From contig CP021220.1 of assembly GCA_003999685.1 (NCBI GenBank), positions 1,674,001 through 1,738,000 of the forward strand: a stretch of DNA of 64,000 nt, given 5' to 3'. This document shows, in pieces, positions 3,901 to 19,715 of this stretch (positions within the stretch are counted from its first letter, which is position 1; each line of letters starts with the position of its first letter). This DNA is from Taiwanofungus camphoratus. Taxonomy: Eukaryota; Basidiomycota; Agaricomycetes; Polyporales; Taiwanofungaceae. Position numbers and translations under genes: made by a program. Below the pieces are notes generated by a model. It saw nothing but the letters and a program-made list of their open reading frames with translations, was not told the origin of the DNA and searched no databases.

Positions 3901-5138
3901 AGATCGGGTGATGATAGCCTGTGATCGGTAGGCAACGTGTTCTGCACGCGCACGCGCGGGTGTCATGGTATCGTTGCGCTTACGCTGTCTTTGCAGGTGC
4001 GACGAATGGTATCACACGCAATGTGTGAACATGCCAGATCTGGAAGTAGACTTGGTCGACCAATTCATTTGTCCGCCATGCATTGAAAGTACGTCTTACA
4101 CATTTTTATTGAAGTTGCTAATACTCATTAATTTTCTTCCAGGCAATCCGCATCTACATCTCCGAACCACATATAGAAGGCGTTGCTTGTTCGGTCTGAA
4201 GCATCTCAATCCCTCATCGCCAAACGCCTGCCACAAACCCGCGCGAGGTGCATTCTCAAAGTACTGCTCTGACAAATGTGGTATTTTATATATGCAATCC
4301 CGCATCGACGCATGGGGAGGAGACAAGGAAAGACTCTGGGAAAGCGTCAAGGATGCCAATAAACGAGAAGGGGTTGTAGTTTGTGTGAAAGAGAGAAACA
4401 GGATTGTCAAGATAGAAGGCGATATGCATGTGTCACCAGAGCAGCAGCAGCAGCCGGACCTTTCTTTGGAGATGGTGAAGCCTTCTCAAACTAAGGTCGA
4501 CCGCGAGTTGGCGCGTTTGGACGCTCAGCTTGAGAAGCTTGAGCAGCGACGGGAGGAATTGAAAAACGAGATGGAAGTAGTGATATGGCGAGAAAAGCTA
4601 GTCGAGTTGGCTACCGCTCGGGCAGAAAACCTGGACGAATGTGGTTGGGATCAGCGGTTATGTTTCGGGGACGATGAGTATGCTGAGTTTGGCGCCGGGG
4701 TCCTGGAGAGCTATGAAGATGCTGGTCAACAAGAGGCTAAAGAAAGCAATGACATGATGCAAGTGGATGTTGAGGACGGCGAATGGTGGTGTAGAGGCAA
4801 AAGGAAATGTGACCGTCATGCTGGGTATGTTTCGTCCTCCTGTATGGCCCTCTTGGATTCTGATCACATTTTGTATGCACAGATGGCAGAAGTTGCGCTC
4901 TGCTGAGGTTTCGTTCGAAAAGCAGACCCTGGAGGACGCGCTTCTCAGGCTTACCACACAAGAACGCGAGATTCGAAAACATATCGAAGATGTTGTGGAT
5001 CCCAAAGCTCAAACATCTGTGCCAGATGTTATGGGGCTCCCTCTACAACCGTTGAACGGCGACGTGTTTGCCAACGGCCTTCCCAAAGCCAAGACTAACG
5101 GTGAAGCAGTTAAGAAAGGCAAAAAGAGGAAGAATTAA
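984..5138 (+). CDS. SPP1: COMPASS (Set1 complex) PHD-finger subunit Spp1/CFP1-like, five exons
   Basis: Spp1 is the PHD-finger subunit of the Set1/COMPASS histone H3K4 methyltransferase and reads H3K4me3 in the nucleus. Predicted exons are 984-3467, 3527-3927, 3997-4088, 4143-4824 and 4883-5138, giving about 1304 residues. The PHD finger begins with YCICKTSYDEDRVMIACD, continues with CDEWYHTQCVN and ends with FICPPCIE, split by two introns. It is followed by the family's second Cys/His block (KYCSDKCGILYM) and a C-terminal coiled coil. The ATG at 984 is the first in frame and opens with MAARRLAISSLLC. The roughly 950 residues before the PHD finger are Ser/Pro/Gln/His-rich and look disordered. 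Yeast Spp1 is only about 350 residues, so this N-terminal extension is unusual. A CXXC domain as in animal CFP1 is not visible. The family call is firm and the function is inferred from it. Confidence 0.85.
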
Positions 5139-6255: not shown

Positions 6256-7050
6256 ATGTAAATTCCCTTTTTCTGCCTCCCAGGCACTCCATCGGAATCA
6301 AGGCTATGTGAAATTCTCCGTGCTCTGCTATTGTACCCCAAAAATTTCAGTGATGAAGACATGTATTGACTGACATGCGAAGTTGGTATGTTCCAAGCGA
6401 GTGCTTCAGTGCTTGCTCTACAAAACAATTTCTCGAATCTTCGTACTTCAGGGGCATCGGAATCGGACGTGTCAACGAGAAATATCGAACGTAACTTCCA
6501 AGCTAGTATGCTCTGTTGCAGTATATCACAACTTAAGTAGAATAGACGATTGTTCTGTGATAAAGCTCTGTGAAGACACATCTGGAGGCACGACAGGGCA
6601 CCCGAAACAAAGGCGTGTTGCTATCCCCAGAAAATGATCGCCGCCGAGCAATACTTATAAGCTTATGTAGAGAGCCGACGCCATACGTTATGCGGGAATA
6701 GCATTCCTCTTTGAAGAGACACAAGGTTAATGTAGACGCATTATGGCAAGGATGTAAGGGAACTAAATGTACTAAGGACGAGAGAGCCCATCTCAAGTTG
6801 AAAGTACTAAACACTTCGACAGGAACTATTAGAGCACTAAGGATTTCTGGATTGCTCACAAGGCAGAACTTGTCACGTTTGTTTAGACAAGGTCGAATAC
6901 GAAAGAAAACCGAGCTTGAGGTCAATGTCTGCAGCTCCCTGAGCAAGGCAAAGTGTTTGCACTTTCTTTGCAATTGGAGGACCGATGAGAAAGGCAATGT
7001 ATACTGACGCAATGAAGAATATCGGTATCCAGGTATCCTTCAATAAGCTG
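6256..7050. other. Intergenic between tRNA-Ser and the complex I gene
   Basis: I see no supported gene. A hydrophobic stretch on the minus strand at about 6950-7040 is read only by running past the NDUFA5 stop in another frame and has no ATG of its own. It is therefore taken as 3' UTR. Confidence 0.4.
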
Positions 7051-7508
7051 TTACGATGCTGTCGCCTCCTTGCCAAAATATTGCCATTGTCCAGGCTCAG
7101 GTTTCTCCTCCAATGGCTCCCAACTGAGGAGACCCAGAGTGAGATCACTAGGAGTAACAACCTTGAATGATACAAATGGACATACGCCTTCCACTCGATC
7201 ATATTCGAGACGAGCTTCATCTCGTCTTCCGCGATATCCAGTGACTCCTCTATATGACCCTCACCCAGCTGCTTCTCAGCCTCCTCGATATTTCCATTGG
7301 AGCCCTGCACGATCTTGAGCTTGTGCTGGGTGAATGCCTCCACGCCTTGCCGGTAGACGGATGTTTCCGGAATGGATGAGAGCATGGTGAGAGTAGATTG
7401 GTATGTCTTGACGAGCTCGGGCAGTGGGTCGTGATGGACATGGAGGCCCGTGATGCCCGTAGTTGTCTTACGAAGCTGGTTGAATAGAGGACGTGTAAGG
7501 CGGAACAT
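7051..7508 (-). CDS. NADH:ubiquinone oxidoreductase subunit NDUFA5 (B13) homologue
   Basis: This is an accessory subunit on the peripheral arm of mitochondrial complex I, at the matrix side of the inner membrane. The protein is about 131 residues, starting at the ATG MFRLTRPLFN. It shows the family's ETC complex I conserved region: LVKTYQSTL, YRQGVEAFTQHKLKIV, the acidic helix SLDIAEDEMKLVSNMIEWKAWEPL (given here in two parts by the intron), and GQWQYFGK near the C-terminus. One intron, 7124-7185, splits the alanine of EWKA from WEPL, and splicing is needed to recover the conserved end. The Arg-rich, acid-poor N-terminus suits mitochondrial import. It is transcribed divergently from the bL32m gene 110 bp away. 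Confidence 0.88.
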
Positions 7509-7618
7509 GATGGTTCGTCGCAGCAAGTGCAGTCACCGCTTCAACGCGAAAGGTCGGAGAGCGAATGTGGTGGACTATCAGTACGGTACCGTGACCTACG
7601 CTGTCTTTTTCCACAACG
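7509..7618. promoter_or_regulatory. Short bidirectional promoter shared by two mitochondrial-protein genes
   Basis: Only 110 bp separate the ATG codons of the NDUFA5-like gene (minus) and the bL32m gene (plus). Both transcripts must start within or near this interval. No clear TATA box is visible. Confidence 0.6.
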
Positions 7619-8083: not shown

Positions 8084-8549
8084 TGGTAGGTAACGCAAAA
8101 GGTGAGACTTCAAGTCTCAAAGTGTCACACATTGGATCGCTCATTGTACATTTTGCAACCCCTCAGTTATGTGTACCTTTTATCTTAATTGGACTTAACT
8201 TCGCCTTCGATGGTCATACTTGAGGATCGCTGGCAGCTAGAGCAGAGAGCGGGAGTACTGTCTTTTGCTTTGGGGTTGTAAGCCTGATCCTAGCCTCGGA
8301 GTTTAAAGGGCCTTCGGTCCTTGATTGAGCTGTATGTAGTTTTGAGGCTAAGCACTCAGCTATGTAATATGTTTCAAGTTCTAGCGCTACACATGTGCAA
8401 AATCACAAGCGCATTCATCCGAACGGTGAACCCCGAAGTACTCGATGGTCTCGTGGGGAGATCCTACCACCAATTTCGGTCACGACAGTCATGTGTATGT
8501 GTTGTGCTGACCATGTCGTTTGGTTTGACCTTCCGCACGTCCTTGTTTC
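8084..8549. other. Intergenic, no supported gene
   Basis: This stretch contains the bL32m 3' UTR and the thiolase upstream region. I see no conserved frame, tRNA or repeat. Confidence 0.5.
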
Positions 8550-10290
8550 ATGCTTCGAAAGTTGGCTCAGCGAGGCTCGGTGCCCCTTGTGCGCTCGATG
8601 GCCACGCAGGCGCGTGGTCTTCCTGCCATCCTCGAGAAGAGGCCCGACGACGTAGTCATAACGTTCGCGAAGCGTACTGCCATGGGTCGAGCCAAGAAGG
8701 GCCAGCTGAAAGACACGCCGGTTGATGCGCTCATGCATGCACTGTTCAAGGTAAGTACTGTCAATCTAATCGCAAACAGGCGCCAATTCATGTGTTGTAG
8801 GCAACTCTGGAGAAGACAAAGTTAGATCCTGCCAAGATTGACGACATCTGTGTAGGTCAGTAAACCCTAGAGGCATAGCCACTTGTGTGCGTTAATTTCA
8901 ATGGCACTCTTTGTCTTAGGAACATGTCACCCGCCATCTCCGGCTTATATCTCCCGTGCTGCAGCGCTGGCAGCTGGTATACCTGCGCAAGTCCCTGTTT
9001 CCACTGTGAACCGGTTATGTGCTTCGGGTCTTCAAGCAATCAGAAGTATTGCCAACGCAATTGAAACCGGGCACATATCACTCGGTATGGCGGTGGGAGT
9101 GGAAAGCATGTCGTTGAAGTACATTAGTGTTCACCCTACATAAAGTTTCACTGAGGTCACTGGTACTCACAGCCCGCGTCCCACACCTGAAGTTGTAAAG
9201 GAGGTAGGTGGGAACGCACAAGCATACGATTGTGTGCAGGTCAGTTCCACCACCCCTACGTCCAACTAGATCTTTTCAAAAATAATTCTTTAGCCCATGG
9301 GATGGACATCAGAAATGGTGGCGCAAGCCTACAAGGTACCCCGACAAAAGCAGGATGAATATGCGCTCATATCACACGTCAGAGCGGAGAAGGTAGCCTT
9401 TCGACAATCTTACCAAGACAAAGCTGGTTGACTGCTATTTTTAGGCAACTGCGTCTGGGGTTTTCGCAGAAGAGATCATACCGATCGAATTACAAGGTGC
9501 TGTCGTCTCTGTAGACGATACTATTCGGCCAGGAACAACAGCTGAGACTCTTGCAAAACTCAAACCTGTCTTCCCCGACTGGGGCGAAGCTTCTACAACT
9601 GCAGGAAACGCTAGTGGCTTGGGAGATGGTGCCGCTCTTTGCATATTGATGACAAGAGCACGTGCGATGAAGGAGGGAATGGAAGTACTTGGGAAATATG
9701 TTGCGAGTGCTTTCGTTGGTTTGTCTGATTTTTGTTGATACTGAAGTCATCTGCTCATGGCTACATTGACAGGTGTTGAACCCCGATACATGGGTATTGG
9801 TCCCATCGCGGCTATACCCAAGGTTCTTGCGCAGGTTGGTTTGACCAAAGCGGACGTCGACGTCTACGAGGTAGCTGTCACCACGATTAGCATACTCCTC
9901 AGTGCTAACAGTTCCAAAAGATCAACGAAGCTTTCGCATCGCAGTTCGCTTATTGCGTCGAAGAGCTTCAAATACCCATCTCAAGGATCAATCCCAAGTA
10001 AGGTTGTCAATTGAAATCTAGTTGGACATGTGTTTACGGTTGCATGTTCGATAGCGGAGGATCTATCGCTTTAACACACCCTCTGGGCATGAGTATGTAC
10101 ATCCATTATTTCGCTCGATTCCGTCTTCTCAACAACGTACTTTGGTTTGCCAACCGCAGCTGGAGCTCGTCAGGTTGTAACGGGTCTAGCTGAGCTTCGC
10201 CGGCAAGGTGGCAGTATACTATGCACCAGCATGTGTATAGGCAGCGGGATGGGCGGGGCTGGCATTTTTGTCAACGAGGCTCATTCTTGA
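8550..10290 (+). CDS. 3-ketoacyl-CoA thiolase (acetyl-CoA acyltransferase), ten exons
   Basis: The enzyme cleaves 3-ketoacyl-CoA with CoA in the last step of fatty-acid beta-oxidation. Ten short exons join in frame to about 412 residues. Their approximate ends are 8750, 8855, 9118, 9239, 9392, 9718, 9870, 9997, 10092 and 10290. The nucleophilic cysteine lies in [14 protein letters not shown], the GGS-ALTHPLG segment carries the catalytic histidine, [11 protein letters not shown] matches the NEAFA motif, and the second catalytic cysteine is in [16 protein letters not shown]. Conserved NPRPTPE and [12 protein letters not shown] confirm the 3-ketoacyl class rather than acetoacetyl-CoA thiolase. 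The N-terminus ([20 protein letters not shown]) is basic and lacks an obvious PTS2 nonapeptide, so a mitochondrial location is possible. A second ATG at 8598 could give a shorter form. Confidence 0.9.
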
Positions 10291-14029: not shown

Positions 14030-14184
14030 TTACTTGCTCTTTGGCGGCTCGGCGCAACCGCAGCTCGGCCACGAGCAGGTACCACCGTTGGCCTCGACGT
14101 TGGCGCACTTGACAGTGTCCTGACCAGATGCTTCAAGTCACGTTCCGAACTATCAAATGCAATACAAAGTATACTCACAGACAT
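14030..14184 (-). CDS. 31-residue four-cysteine microprotein, copy 1
   Basis: The minus-strand model is ATG-TCT (14184-14179), a 59-bp GT-AG intron (14120-14178), then 30 codons ending in TAA. The peptide starts MSDTVKCANVEANGG, has cysteines at positions 7, 17, 22 and 24 (C-x9-C-x4-C-x-C) and ends CGCAEPPKSK. A second gene at 16692-16846 in opposite orientation encodes the same peptide except Ser21 to Thr. The exon 2 copies differ in nine synonymous codons and one replacement, plus the stop codon, which strongly supports translation. The size and the Cys-x-Cys pair suggest a metallothionein-like metal-binding peptide, but four cysteines are few for that class. It could also be a redox or zinc-binding peptide. 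There is no signal peptide. Function is unknown. Confidence 0.72.
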
Positions 14185-14275
14185 TGGGATTCAGTAGCGG
14201 ACTAAAGTGAGGTTGCGAAGTGAGTGTTCTGTAAGTTGAAAGTCGAGGACTGAGGTGCACCATCAGCGGTGAGGC

Positions 14276-14283
14276 CTTTTATA
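14276..14283 (-). promoter_or_regulatory. TATA box of microprotein copy 1
   Basis: The minus strand reads TATAAAAG, 91 bases before the ATG of copy 1. Copy 2 has TATAAAG at almost the same distance (93 bases), which supports a shared promoter architecture. Confidence 0.55.
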
Positions 14284-14284
14284 T

Positions 14285-16590
14285 CGGTAGTCTTGCAGTC
14301 GTTTCGGAGTCATCCGACTTGAAGTGCTCGCTTCCAGACACGCGGGTGCGGTACTTCAGTGGTACGTACTACGTCCTCAGCTTGACATAATTTAATCAGA
14401 GTGATCCGATTACACAGATCTTATCAGTATTTCAGAACCTTTGGGGTTTGTATCTTATCAGATTTTTTCCCTGGATCTATCTTCGAAGCCTTGAGCCTCA
14501 ATAGTACGGTCGCAGTGCTTAACGCCCTTTGCGCTATCACATTTCAATTTGTAGTCATTATACAAATTCATCGGTGGTTGGGCGGTTGGTCCTCCTCATT
14601 GCAACTTCGTGCCGTTATCGCTCAGCCAGCTTCATTAGGTACGTTGCCCGCGTCCAATAGAAGATTGCTCATTATCTGTCGACAGCCAACGAATGACAGA
14701 ACTAGCATTAGACCAGTGGTTGGCAGAGGTTACGGTATTCATGGTCGTACCTTCAACGAGTCCTACGTCACAAGGAGTTTCGATCCTGACTTCTTATTCC
14801 TTGCTGAGTCTAGCTAAGGCATTCTTTGATAGCATCGAATCATGACTCAGTTGTCGAGGTATAGCGCCGTACACATTCTTAACCAAAATATAAGATATGC
14901 TTTCTTCACGCACGTGAACTGCTAAAGACAGGTGAGTGCTACCCAGTCGGCCTTGTCAGAGTGTGGAACTTGGCATGTCGATCTACGCCGTGTCAGCCGG
15001 TCGGCAAGGCACAGGGTGGGCTTCCGCATTCAAACGGATGCAGCGCGTAGTCCGAACTCTGTTCAATTCGAGCGGCTGGCTGGGCACTAAATTGTTGTTG
15101 TTGGCTAATAGGAACATCCTCATTGTTCAAGGCTTCTATTGCAGACTTTGCACGCTGTGGATCATGGAACTGATGAGGTGCTTCGTGATCGGACCGGATG
15201 TTGGCAATATATCTACTACTATCAACGATGACCAGCCTGGTATTCAAAGGTGTCAGCTATGCAAAATTTCAACTCTCCCACTTGTCGTCTTACTAATATA
15301 AAATGATTGTCCTCATCTAGAGAATCCATGACCGCCTGTTATCGTGAAATGCATATGGATTCTCATGTTGACCTGAAGGGTTGGTCTCTGGGTCCCCCTT
15401 CGTGATATAGAGTCACAACCGATCTGAACCGCGGGCTGCATGTTTGGTGCTCAGATGCAACGGTGAAAACTTAGTCGAACGTCATCCGCTGGAACGCCGC
15501 ACCTCGACTCGGGGCTTTTCAGGAATTCCAGAGCGCGTCCACTCGATATAGCACCCAATGTACACTTACCTTGCATTCTCTTCTTATCAGTGCTGTCAGA
15601 ATTGCCACAGAATCTCCGGTCATACCTGTCCGATATCACCCTCTTGAGGTGCCGGCGTGTGCCCAAGCAAGATCATTTTCGACACCAGTGGTTCAGACGA
15701 ATCACTGGTGCTGCCTTAGTCATCAAGGTTCTTCTATAGCTCTGTCCAAAATTCTCATGGGCTCTTTTCCTCCGCGATTCTGAATACATTTGCGCTTGCC
15801 CCTTCACACGGGGGTGGCCGGTGATTCTATTCTATTTCATATCACAATCTGTCCCTGTGAAGCAGCGACAGATGACATCCGCTCCATTTCTGGCATAGCT
15901 TGATCAGAACGTGGGCACAGTTGGACAAGTTCCCCCAGTTCTTACAGGACACAGCTTAGTCTGCCCTGCACATTGTGATTGCGAAGATATGATTGGTCCA
16001 GTCATTTCCGAAGTGCAAACTTGTTTTGACCACCTTGGCGACTCGGATTTGTTTCCACTATCCAGGCTAACTCAAGCGAACTTCAGAGCTTGAAGTGACA
16101 AGTTACTTCGCTGTGCAATTGCTGCATACCATGTATAGGCGAACATTGTGATGTTTGTAGAATCGATGAATGTCCGAGAAATGCTCTTTTTTGTTGATGT
16201 CGATTGTGTCATGGGAGTAGATCCTAAATTCAGAAAGGTCCCAAGGTTCAAGGGCATTCTCGATTTGACCGGACCCACGTCGAAGCTACGGTGCTTCTAT
16301 ATCAAAATGTAAGATGTGCATCGAATGGATCATCGGAACAATGTCTTATTCTAGCTACCTGGTGACCCAGCAGAGAAGAGTTGAAGCAGCTATCATTGTT
16401 CCCCGTAAACTGGTGACAGCACAGAAAATTCAAGGAGACTCGATGGATTCGGTCGAGGGTGGGAATGCTTGCATCCTATTACGCCAATCGTAGACAAGTA
16501 ATTACATACTTCGAGATAAGCAGTTCTTCTTTGAGGATGGTAGCTAGAGATAGAACTCAGGTGACCACAACAGTACCGTAGAGCATATAG
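14285..16590. other. Gene-poor stretch between the two microprotein genes
   Basis: Over 2.3 kb I find no gene I can defend. A minus-strand frame at 14993-15256 reads as plausible protein, but it follows an in-frame stop, and linking it to the ATG at 15329 would need a 37-bp intron. A plus-strand frame at about 14401-14817 lacks any ATG. Confidence 0.4.
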
Positions 16591-16591
16591 A

Positions 16592-16598
16592 TATAAAG
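16592..16598 (+). promoter_or_regulatory. TATA box of microprotein copy 2
   Basis: TATAAAG lies 93 bases before the ATG of copy 2, mirroring copy 1. Confidence 0.55.
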
Positions 16599-16691
16599 GA
16601 GATGGCACATGAACAGTAAGCCTCACTATTCGCCTATCAAACTGCACAACAGTTAGCTCAGAACCTAACAAAACCCAACAAGTCAACTACA

Positions 16692-16846
16692 ATGTCTGTC
16701 AGTAGAGTCTCTATTTTCCTCCATGCTTCAAACGGGTTGATTAAAAACACTTGCAGGACACTGTCAAGTGCGCTAATGTCGAGGCCAACGGTGGAACCTG
16801 CTCCTGGCCGACCTGTGGCTGCGCCGAACCTCCGAAGAGCAAGTGA
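16692..16846 (+). CDS. 31-residue four-cysteine microprotein, copy 2
   Basis: The model is ATG-TCT (16692-16697), a 59-bp intron (16698-16756, GTCAGT to GCAG), then 30 codons ending in TGA at 16844-16846. The peptide matches copy 1 at 30 of 31 residues, with Thr instead of Ser at 21, and keeps all four cysteines (7, 17, 22, 24), Trp19 and the lysine-rich end PPKSK. The intron position and length are identical to copy 1 while the intron sequence has diverged. This points to an older duplication with selection on the peptide. The two genes face opposite ways, 2.5 kb apart. Metal binding is an inference from composition only. Confidence 0.72.
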
Positions 16847-17199: not shown

Positions 17200-19715
17200 A
17201 TGATGGCAGCAATGCAAGCGATTGAACTAGATGATATGGAAGTCATTCAGCTACCTCCAGAACTGCAAAATTTATCAATGGTTGTGGAGAACAACCCCGA
17301 GTCTTTTGCCACAGGCAATGATGAAATTCAAGTGGCTGCGTTGAATGCTACAAAATATGTATACGATCTCGGTATGTGGTTCATTTAGTGGCTACTCCCT
17401 TACGGAAAGCTGACAAAAAAGTTACATATAGCTCTGAAATCTGAGGCTAAGTCTCGTGCACACATCGCTGAATTACTGTCTTCCATATCGCCTGCCCTTG
17501 CTCCGCAAACTCGTTCTCAAACGTCTGCAGCAAGCAAACAGAGGCAAAGCCCAGGAGCCCCACATATTCCCGATGAACCGAACTTTCAACAGACCCCTCT
17601 TACCGAGCTCTTTATAGATGGAATGAACGAGGATCAGCTCTGGGCACAGCTAGAACTCAGGGCGAAGAATGTTTGTGATATCCTCGAACACGCGCTCGAC
17701 GGAGCTGGCGAGGAGCTGCACAGCGACGGGGAGGACGATGAAGAAGGAAGCAAGAAAGAAGGAAGATATTCATTGGATAACGACGTTGACATGGGAGAGT
17801 TGGACGGCATGGAAGTGGACAGCGACGAATATGACGAGGACGGTGATAGCGAGGATGGTGATGAGGACGATGATCATGACGACGATGTGGGAGGAGACGC
17901 TGATCTAGGAGAAGCTATAGCGGAACTGCGAGATCCGTCAGACGAAGATGAAGGTGACGAAGATGAAAACCTCGACCTCGACAAGCCTCCTTTACTCAGC
18001 GGAGGGCAGCGGAACACAAAGTGGAAACCGAGAAGCGGCGGTCATCCTGAGTTGGACGATGGATTCTTCGATTTGGCGGCGTTCAATGCTGAAACTGAGG
18101 AAGCGGAAGCCAGAGTAGTCTCAGAAGGTAAGCTGGGAGGAGGTGGGGATGATGAGGATGAAGACGGCGAAGACGAACCTATCGACTTATTCGCGCTAGT
18201 GGACGACAATTCCACTACGGTTGATGAAGAGGATATAGAGGGAGGAAGTGGTGGTGTGTCCGCATTCCCTTATTTCCAATATCCTGATTCAAATCTGGCT
18301 TTAGAACCATACTATAAGGATTTCTTTGACCCTCCGCCTCGACCCTCGGTGCCAAAGTCGAAGAAGATTCTCCGACCAAGCGCTGGAGGGCCTACACCCG
18401 GCGGCAAGGTCCGCTTTCATGAGGAAGTCCGAGTCAAAAAGATCGCGGCAAAGGGGAAGAATCATCCATTATCCATGATGTTTGAGGAAGCTGATGATGG
18501 CGATGACGAGCATGGTCGTGGTGAAATTATGTCGGATGACGAAAGCGGGGATGGTGAAGGAAGTGAAGACAGTGAGGATGACGAGGAAGAATCAGAACAT
18601 GATGGTTTCAGGGACAGTGATGAAGGCCTCGACGCAGAAGGCTTCGGTGAAAATGAAGAGGACAGCCGCGAGACGATTGAACGTCTCAAAGACGATCTCT
18701 TTGCAGATGAGGAAGTTGTTCAAACAGGTACAATACTCTCGTTGTCCACAAACGATTTACTAGAACCCTTTTTTCCCACAGGCTTATCTACCTATGAAAA
18801 GAGGATGGCAGCGCTACGCGAAGAAATCGCATCCCTGGAAGCTGAGAATGTGGCTAAGAGAGATTGGACACTTATGGGCGAGGCAACCTCTCGATCACGG
18901 CCGCAGAATTCGCTGCTGGAAGAAGATTTGGAGTTTGAACGTATCATGAAGTCTATTCCCGTCGTTACCGAAGAAGCAGTTCAGAATCTCGAAGAACGGA
19001 TCAAGGCGAGGATTTTAGAGGCTCAATTTGACGACGTTGTGCGCAAGCGTCCACTGGATGACAAGCCTTTCCTTCCGTCACGATTCTTTGAGCTTCAAGA
19101 CACCAAATCTAAACAGTCCCTTGCCGAGATCTACGAGGACGAATACACCGCTGCACAGACAGGTGCCGCAGGCGAGGACCGGGATGGAAAACTTAAAAAG
19201 GAGCGAGATGAACTCGAGAAAATATGGGAAAATATTGCTGGGAAGTTAGACGCGCTCTGCAATGCGCATTTCACTCCCAAGACAGTCAGTTTGATTTCTC
19301 TCAGTACACACCAGCTCTGTCTGACGATGTCAATTAGCCTAAGGCTACTATTTCGACTGTCTCTAATGTCGCCGCAGCGGCTTTGGAATCAGCGCTGCCC
19401 ATAACTATGTCTACATCCACCATGCTCGCCCCCGAGGAAGTATATGCTCCAACCTCAAGTGACCTGCGGGCACGTAGCGAGCTGGCTCCTGCGGAGAAGC
19501 GCGCACTACGGAACAAACAGAAGAAGGCGAAGAAAAATGCCCGTGACGCTCTAAAGAGAAGCGTAGAGAAATTTGCGCAACCGAAGAACATTGGAGGCGT
19601 CAAAAAGCAGAAAGAAGCGGCTCTGAAAAGTGTCATCAGAACTGGTAAGGGAATCACAGTAGTTGGGAAGAAGAGCAAAGATATGGCAAACAAACGGAGC
19701 CAGGCTAAGTCTTGA
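17200..19715 (+). CDS. MPP10: U3 snoRNP protein Mpp10
   Basis: Mpp10 is a core component of the SSU processome, binding Imp3 and Imp4 on the U3 snoRNP in 18S rRNA processing in the nucleolus. Four exons (17200-17371, 17432-18727, 18782-19284, 19338-19715) give about 782 residues. The conserved MNEDQLWAQLELRAKNV is followed by long Asp/Glu-rich tracts typical of the family. Next comes a central FFDPPPRPS and VRFHEEVRVKKI region, then the conserved C-terminal part with LSTYEKRMAALREEIASLEA, DEYTAAQTG and KLDALCNAHFTPK, and a basic tail (LRNKQKKAKKNARDALKRS). The first ATG in frame is at 17200. The 54-bp intron 18728-18781 contains no stop and keeps frame, so its retention would add 18 residues. 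Confidence 0.9.

Follow-up and report, generated by a model that had tools for sequence, protein, structure and literature searches.

A dispersed family of nearly invariant four-cysteine microproteins, putatively metal-binding, in Taiwanofungus camphoratus

The genome of Taiwanofungus camphoratus contains a dispersed family of genes for a nearly invariant and under-annotated microprotein of 31 residues, in which four cysteines follow the pattern C-x9-C-x4-C-x-C. Two of these genes, here called copy A and copy B, are located in the window, i.e. the whole stretch of 64,000 nucleotides that was analysed. The initial annotation had described them as an inverted pair, which is correct for A and B but understates a family of seven dispersed genes. 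Concerning the function, which was deduced from the sequence, we attach about even weight to the possibility that the product acts as a dose-driven microprotein of the cytosol that binds metal through a single thiolate site. The more extended proposal, namely that these seven genes constitute a new four-Cys metal microprotein family of wood-decay Polyporales, with a family-specific promoter, a metallothionein-like buffering role and a bacterial Cys spacing that was reached independently, is put forward tentatively and with clearly less than even confidence.

Gene structure and family size

Copies A (minus strand, 14184-14030) and B (plus strand, 16692-16846) each encode a 31-residue peptide (MSDTVKCANVEANGGTCSWPSCGCAEPPKSK, with variants in the other copies) and are arranged head to head, their ATG codons lying 2.5 kb apart (Table 1). 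Both are present as initially described: they are spliced, lie in opposite orientation and specify peptides that are identical at 30 of 31 positions, the sole difference being S21 in A and T21 in B. The stop codons differ as well (TAA in A, TGA in B). In a repeat search of the region from 12 to 19 kb, the only long inverted repeat, with arms of 98 bp, covers the second exons of A and B, and four further inverted pairs of 21-25 nt are located away from exon 2.

Table 1. Gene and promoter features of copies A and B, with positions in the window
Copy	Feature	Position	Strand	Remark
A	Upstream element TCGGATGAC	14309..14317	-	34 bases before TATA box
A	TATAAA box	14278..14283	-	-99 from ATG
A	Initiator-like TCAGT	14249..14253	-	30 bases after TATA box start
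A	Coding exon 1 (Met-Ser)	14179..14184	-	Same plan in 7/7 genomic copies
A	Intron, 59 bp, GTGAGT...CAG	14120..14178	-	
A	Exon 2 including stop, DTVKCANVEANGGTCSWPSCGCAEPPKSK	14030..14119	-	
B	Upstream element TCAGGTGAC	16557..16565	+	35 bases before TATA box
B	TATAAA box	16592..16597	+	-100 from ATG
B	Initiator-like TCACT	16623..16627	+	31 bases after TATA box start
B	Coding exon 1 (Met-Ser)	16692..16697	+	Same plan in 7/7 genomic copies
B	Intron, 59 bp, GTCAGT...CAG	16698..16756	+	
B	Exon 2 including stop, DTVKCANVEANGGTCSWPTCGCAEPPKSK	16757..16846	+	

Searching the genome (33.2 Mb in 15 contigs) with peptide A revealed seven places on four contigs, four of them on C1 and one each on C2, C13 and C14, and a second family member used as query recovered the identical seven places. 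Such copy counts are lower bounds, and the genome thus contains at least seven intact genes. In all seven, the 6-base coding exon 1 reads ATGTCT or ATGGCT and is followed at the same place by an intron of 54-67 bp, which starts with GTGAG[TC] (GTCAGT in B) and ends with AG; exon 2 is intact throughout. An apparent stop in one copy proved to be the TAG at the intron end and not a true stop. The seven copies specify four distinct peptides, all with the C-x9-C-x4-C-x-C pattern, with these four Cys only and with Trp or Tyr at position 19. A CGC pattern occurs at 112 places genome-wide (57 for the control pattern); within 30 loci among the matches listed, the readings that continue into AEPPKSK were the four known copies on C1, and diverged paralogues may exist beyond these loci. 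The two other members on this contig (L001 and L006; G000:C1:2515087 and 2495179) form a second head-to-head family pair, approximately 20 kb apart.

Selection on the reading frame

Between the second exons of A and B, nine synonymous changes and one replacement had been counted initially, and our comparison of the 29 sense codons gave the same count. When 10 random nucleotide changes were simulated in exon 2, 7.3 residues were altered on average, and none of 20,000 such trials altered one residue or fewer. The introns of A and B are largely diverged, as had been noted, their identity being reached by 41 of 200 shuffles; for the 110 bases upstream this number was 117 of 200. The similarity of A and B in both regions is no greater than that of shuffled sequence.

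Comparison of the seven genomic copies (21 pairs) revealed a pooled pS of 0.514 versus a pN of 0.035, i.e. a dN/dS far below 1, and 22 of the 28 variable columns of exon 2 fall on third codon positions (P 1.3e-9). This third-position bias argues for strong selection on the peptide. The five alternative reading frames are less conserved, with mean identities of 0.59-0.84 versus 0.94 for the coding frame. When all 21 pairs are considered, similarity exceeds that of shuffles in the 110 bases upstream (mean z 3.0), is lower in the introns (mean z 1.9, a value that includes the splice signals) and barely exceeds shuffles in the 110 bases downstream (mean z 0.6). Together with the Polyporales relatives described below, the substitution pattern of the seven copies bears out the earlier proposal of a working peptide under purifying selection.

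Promoter architecture

A TATAAA box is found 86-100 bases 5' of the ATG in all seven copies and is followed in each of them, 30-33 bases from its first base, by TCA[GC]T. Among the 24 TATAAA sites on both strands of the window, two have TCA[GC]T at a distance of 29-35 bases, and these should be the boxes of A and B. The initial annotation had placed a TATA-like box 91-93 bases before the ATG; the box is present, but TATAAA starts at 99 (A) and 100 (B), and the earlier figure therefore corresponds roughly to its 3' edge. The initiator-like site predicts a transcription start 67 bases before the ATG in both A and B. Because this site lies upstream, the 6 bases of exon 1 represent its coding part only, and with this qualification the earlier sizes of exon 1 and of the 59-bp intron stand.

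TCAGTC[CT][TC]CGACT occurs in four of seven copies, and TCRKRTGAS is located 33-35 bases before TATAAA in five of seven. The latter motif was picked post hoc, after inspection of the upstream alignment, which biases its P value and makes the genome count the better measure. Genome-wide, TCRKRTGAS-N23-27-TATAAA occurs at eight sites, of which five belong to the family (six sites for the reversed control), and TATAAA-N23-28-TCAGTCC at five sites, of which four belong to the family (control six). Both motif combinations are therefore close to family-private. Among the four sites outside the family (three with TCRKRTGAS and one with TCAGTCC), one is seemingly inside a coding region, two could not be assigned and one precedes a dynamin-like reading frame, as judged by reading; no other gene clearly under the family promoter was found at these four sites. 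Exact 6-8-mers shared upstream of the seven copies did not exceed those of shuffles. An E-box-like CANNTG lies within the upstream element in four of the five genes that have this element; to our knowledge, it is not a metal signal.

Relatives and their annotation

Protein searches, in which a match requires shared 5-residue words and whose sources included nr, identified eight homologous proteins: two from Laetiporus sulphureus, one from Rhodonia placenta and five from ENA entries. The initial annotation had stated beforehand that a lack of homologues in related genomes would speak against a working peptide; they exist, including those of L. sulphureus and R. placenta. The four Cys, with their C-x9-C-x4-C-x-C spacing, are retained in every one of the eight proteins, and in the aligned members 17 of 29 exon-2 residues are invariant, including all four Cys. 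The three relatives with a species name are all labelled 'uncharacterized' or 'hypothetical'; annotation apparently overlooks most genes of this size, in which the first exon contributes just 6 coding bases. Both L. sulphureus relatives come from a contig 642,529 bases long, perhaps the same one.

Two of the relatives (P0002 and P0005) begin with the MSDTVK that is expected when exon 1 is joined to exon 2, and in the remaining six a Gln precedes the Asp, which matches the unspliced reading ...CAG|GAC. By back-translation of the protein sequences, MSVSI (P0006, P0008, P0009) and NVCEY (P0004) would fit ATGTCTGTGAGTAT, i.e. the same coding exon 1 plus donor site, and the longer N-termini of the relatives resemble translated 5' UTR or intron.

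In prokaryote genome contigs, 51 stretches fit the pattern, and in viral contigs 68, but none of either group passed tblastn. There was no Pfam match at E<=10 for two members and no NCBIfam or PHROGs family match for four members each, and strings of the family peptide did not occur in the literature searched.

Comparison with known metallothioneins

Mushroom heptaCys metallothioneins, such as AcMT2, AsMT2, PiMT1 and LbMT1, are characterized by a C-terminal motif C-x4-C-x-C-x2,3-C-x-C-x4-C-x-C (PMC12508003, available text). The same text describes a short type of 32-35 aa, introns close to 50 bp in length in the AcMT genes and gene duplication of heptaCys metallothioneins in several species, and the family is similar in its very short peptide of 31 residues, its short introns and its multiple copies. 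The C-x4-C-x-C module is likewise common to the heptaCys proteins, as far as the available part of PMC12508003 describes them, and to the family peptide. However, the heptaCys motif has seven Cys, whereas the family peptide has four, and their C-x9-C-x4-C-x-C arrangement is no subset of the heptaCys spacing. As no motif Cys is present at x9 upstream of C-x4-C-x-C, the peptide falls outside the heptaCys group. The Trp or Tyr and the conserved AEPPKSK tail are features of the family peptide, the heptaCys proteins having been compared by their Cys motif. Metallothioneins typically contain few or no aromatic residues, and W/Y19 departs from this rule. The Cys content of the family peptide (4/31, 12.9 mol%) is marginally under the range of 13-35 mol% that the available text of PMC12508003 gives for metallothioneins.

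A closer match in spacing is provided by the Pseudomonas metallothioneins (PF02069; SmtA/BmtA, 6gv6/6gv7), the C-terminal half of which has a C-x9-C-x4-C-x-C spacing identical to that of the family; the peptide also conforms to the PF02069 spacing C-x9,10-C-x4-C-x-C. In common with 6gv7 it has CA....NG..C..P.C.C. In contrast to the family peptide, which is devoid of His, the bacterial metallothioneins carry a Cys-rich N-terminal half, and in them CA is followed by a conserved His. The phmmer match of the peptide to 6gv7 had an E of 2.4, and hhalign of the family against 34 distinct bacterial sequences gave a probability of 10.4, an E of 0.003 (for a single comparison) and a score of 15.7. This score was reached by 14 of 300 full shuffles and by 80 of 300 shuffles that kept the Cys columns, and homology to the bacterial metallothioneins was rejected, as the similarity hardly extends beyond spacing. 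The bacterial likeness therefore lies mainly in the spacing and does not demonstrate descent. In the T. camphoratus genome, the PF02069 profile produced no match over the cut-off, and its three sub-threshold matches did not have the full Cys pattern. The earlier statement that the pattern corresponds to no familiar metallothionein thus holds for the heptaCys type and for Pfam, NCBIfam and PHROGs; the spacing itself is nevertheless seen in Pseudomonas metallothioneins, to which homology is poorly supported.

Proposed function and alternative explanations

The spliced protein begins with MSDTVK and, by reading, has no hydrophobic leader, and the peptide would therefore stay in the reducing cytosol. 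There, the four invariant cysteines C7, C17, C22 and C24 could hold one soft metal ion, either Zn or Cd as a Cys4 site or Cu(I) via the C-G-C end, and the peptide might serve as a small metal buffer or donor, the quantity of which would be secured by many gene copies with TATA promoters. Metal binding may be favoured by analogy, because C-x4-C-x-C also occurs in mushroom metallothioneins (PMC12508003, available text) and the whole spacing in those of Pseudomonas. Against it speak the Cys content, which is slightly under the metallothionein range, W/Y19, which is unusual for metallothioneins, and the non-Cys positions, which appear to be conserved beyond the needs of a plain chelator. The near-invariant remainder of the peptide (VEANGG, [WY]P, GCAEPPKSK) points to a defined fold or to a partner and not to a loose metal sink. 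An AlphaFold2 model of low confidence (pLDDT 68.2, pTM 0.29) contains one helix at residues 2-11 and is silent on the metal site.

The same conservation would also fit a microprotein in which zinc, bound as a Cys4 site, has a structural role and which controls or associates with another protein instead of storing metal, an explanation that we consider unlikely but still the strongest of the alternatives. In exon 2, 13 non-Cys residues, including the C-terminal AEPP.SK, are invariant across the aligned members, which probably exceeds what chelation requires. Yet seven nearly identical copies with TATA promoters appear to reflect a need for dose, and the peptide has no known partner or domain.

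It is also rather unlikely, but of consequence for novelty, that the family represents a divergent or short member of a published group of fungal metal peptides, either the SlMTa/SlMTb Cu-thioneins or the RaZBP peptides of Russula. SlMTa and SlMTb are reportedly conserved basidiomycete Cu-thioneins described by Nguyen et al. in 2017, and the RaZBPs are said to be zinc-binding peptides described by Leonhardt et al. in 2014. According to the available text of PMC9320278, R. placenta and P. chrysosporium contain no mushroom-type metallothionein, and only the Suillus luteus Cu-thionein, which is termed 'ubiquitous' in Agaricomycotina and highly conserved, was detected in them. The Suillus type is thus the sole metallothionein detected in R. 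placenta, in which our family is also found, and the same portion of PMC9320278 reports SlMTa/SlMTb throughout Agaricomycotina. RaZBPs are, like the family peptide, short Cys-containing peptides of basidiomycetes, but the available text of PMC9696665 describes them as binding Zn via Cys and His, whereas the family peptide has no His. No Suillus or Russula protein was among the matches of the protein searches, which is weak evidence against this explanation, as these searches, nr included, needed 5-residue words. A possible identity with SlMTa/SlMTb, known here by description, is the main risk to the novelty of the family.

CGC peptides are known as redox mimics, and every member seen retains the C-G-C sequence together with a Pro and an aromatic residue nearby. 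The peptide might accordingly act in thiol redox chemistry, with C-G-C as a reactive dithiol that reduces or isomerises disulfides, but we regard this as improbable: C7 and C17, which are equally invariant, are left unexplained, and a thioredoxin-type fold should be impossible in 31 residues. Still less credible is a secreted, disulfide-bonded effector, defensin-like or signalling peptide. The loop likeness to cyclotides and scorpion toxins is weak and non-significant (E 2.2-5.7; profile search E 7), the spliced protein, which starts with MSDTVK, has no hydrophobic leader by reading, and the longer N-termini of the relatives probably reflect 5' UTR or intron. Finally, the dispersal of the copies on four contigs would suit an element that is conserved at the RNA or DNA level, or else remnants of a mobile element, but a non-coding nature can practically be dismissed, because variation follows codon positions, each of the seven copies has its intron, stop and TATA box intact and the sole long inverted repeat around A and B consists of the 98-bp arms over exon 2.

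If the family is indeed a new group of metal microproteins, it would represent an overlooked buffer in fungi for which mushroom heptaCys metallothioneins are reported to be missing (PMC9320278, available text). Provided that it binds metal, it would fill the metallothionein gap described for R. placenta and P. chrysosporium in the same source, and it would be a candidate to explain how brown-rot fungi tolerate copper and so overcome wood preservatives. If no metal is bound, it would be a near-invariant seven-copy microprotein acting with a partner.

Genomic surroundings

Inspection by eye of approximately 1.5 kb around the seven copies revealed no shared neighbour gene. About 1 kb from one copy (L007:204-539), a frame resembles, by reading, a small heat-shock protein (HSP20). 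In the window, a very Cys- and Asp/Glu-rich frame (CDCEDCCCCCEED) is found at about 27755 on the minus strand, which is possibly merely the reverse reading of a low-complexity stretch. Positions 3932-4906 (+) contain a PHD-finger match below threshold (20.7 bits versus a cut-off of 24), positions 6876-7532 (-) an NDUFA5-type complex I subunit (E 2.5e-25), and positions 8500-10014 (+) exons which, by reading of the translation, resemble acetyl-CoA acetyltransferase (thiolase). Just 3' of copy B, at 17389-19404 (+), a reading frame shows a strong match to Mpp10 (E 1e-81).
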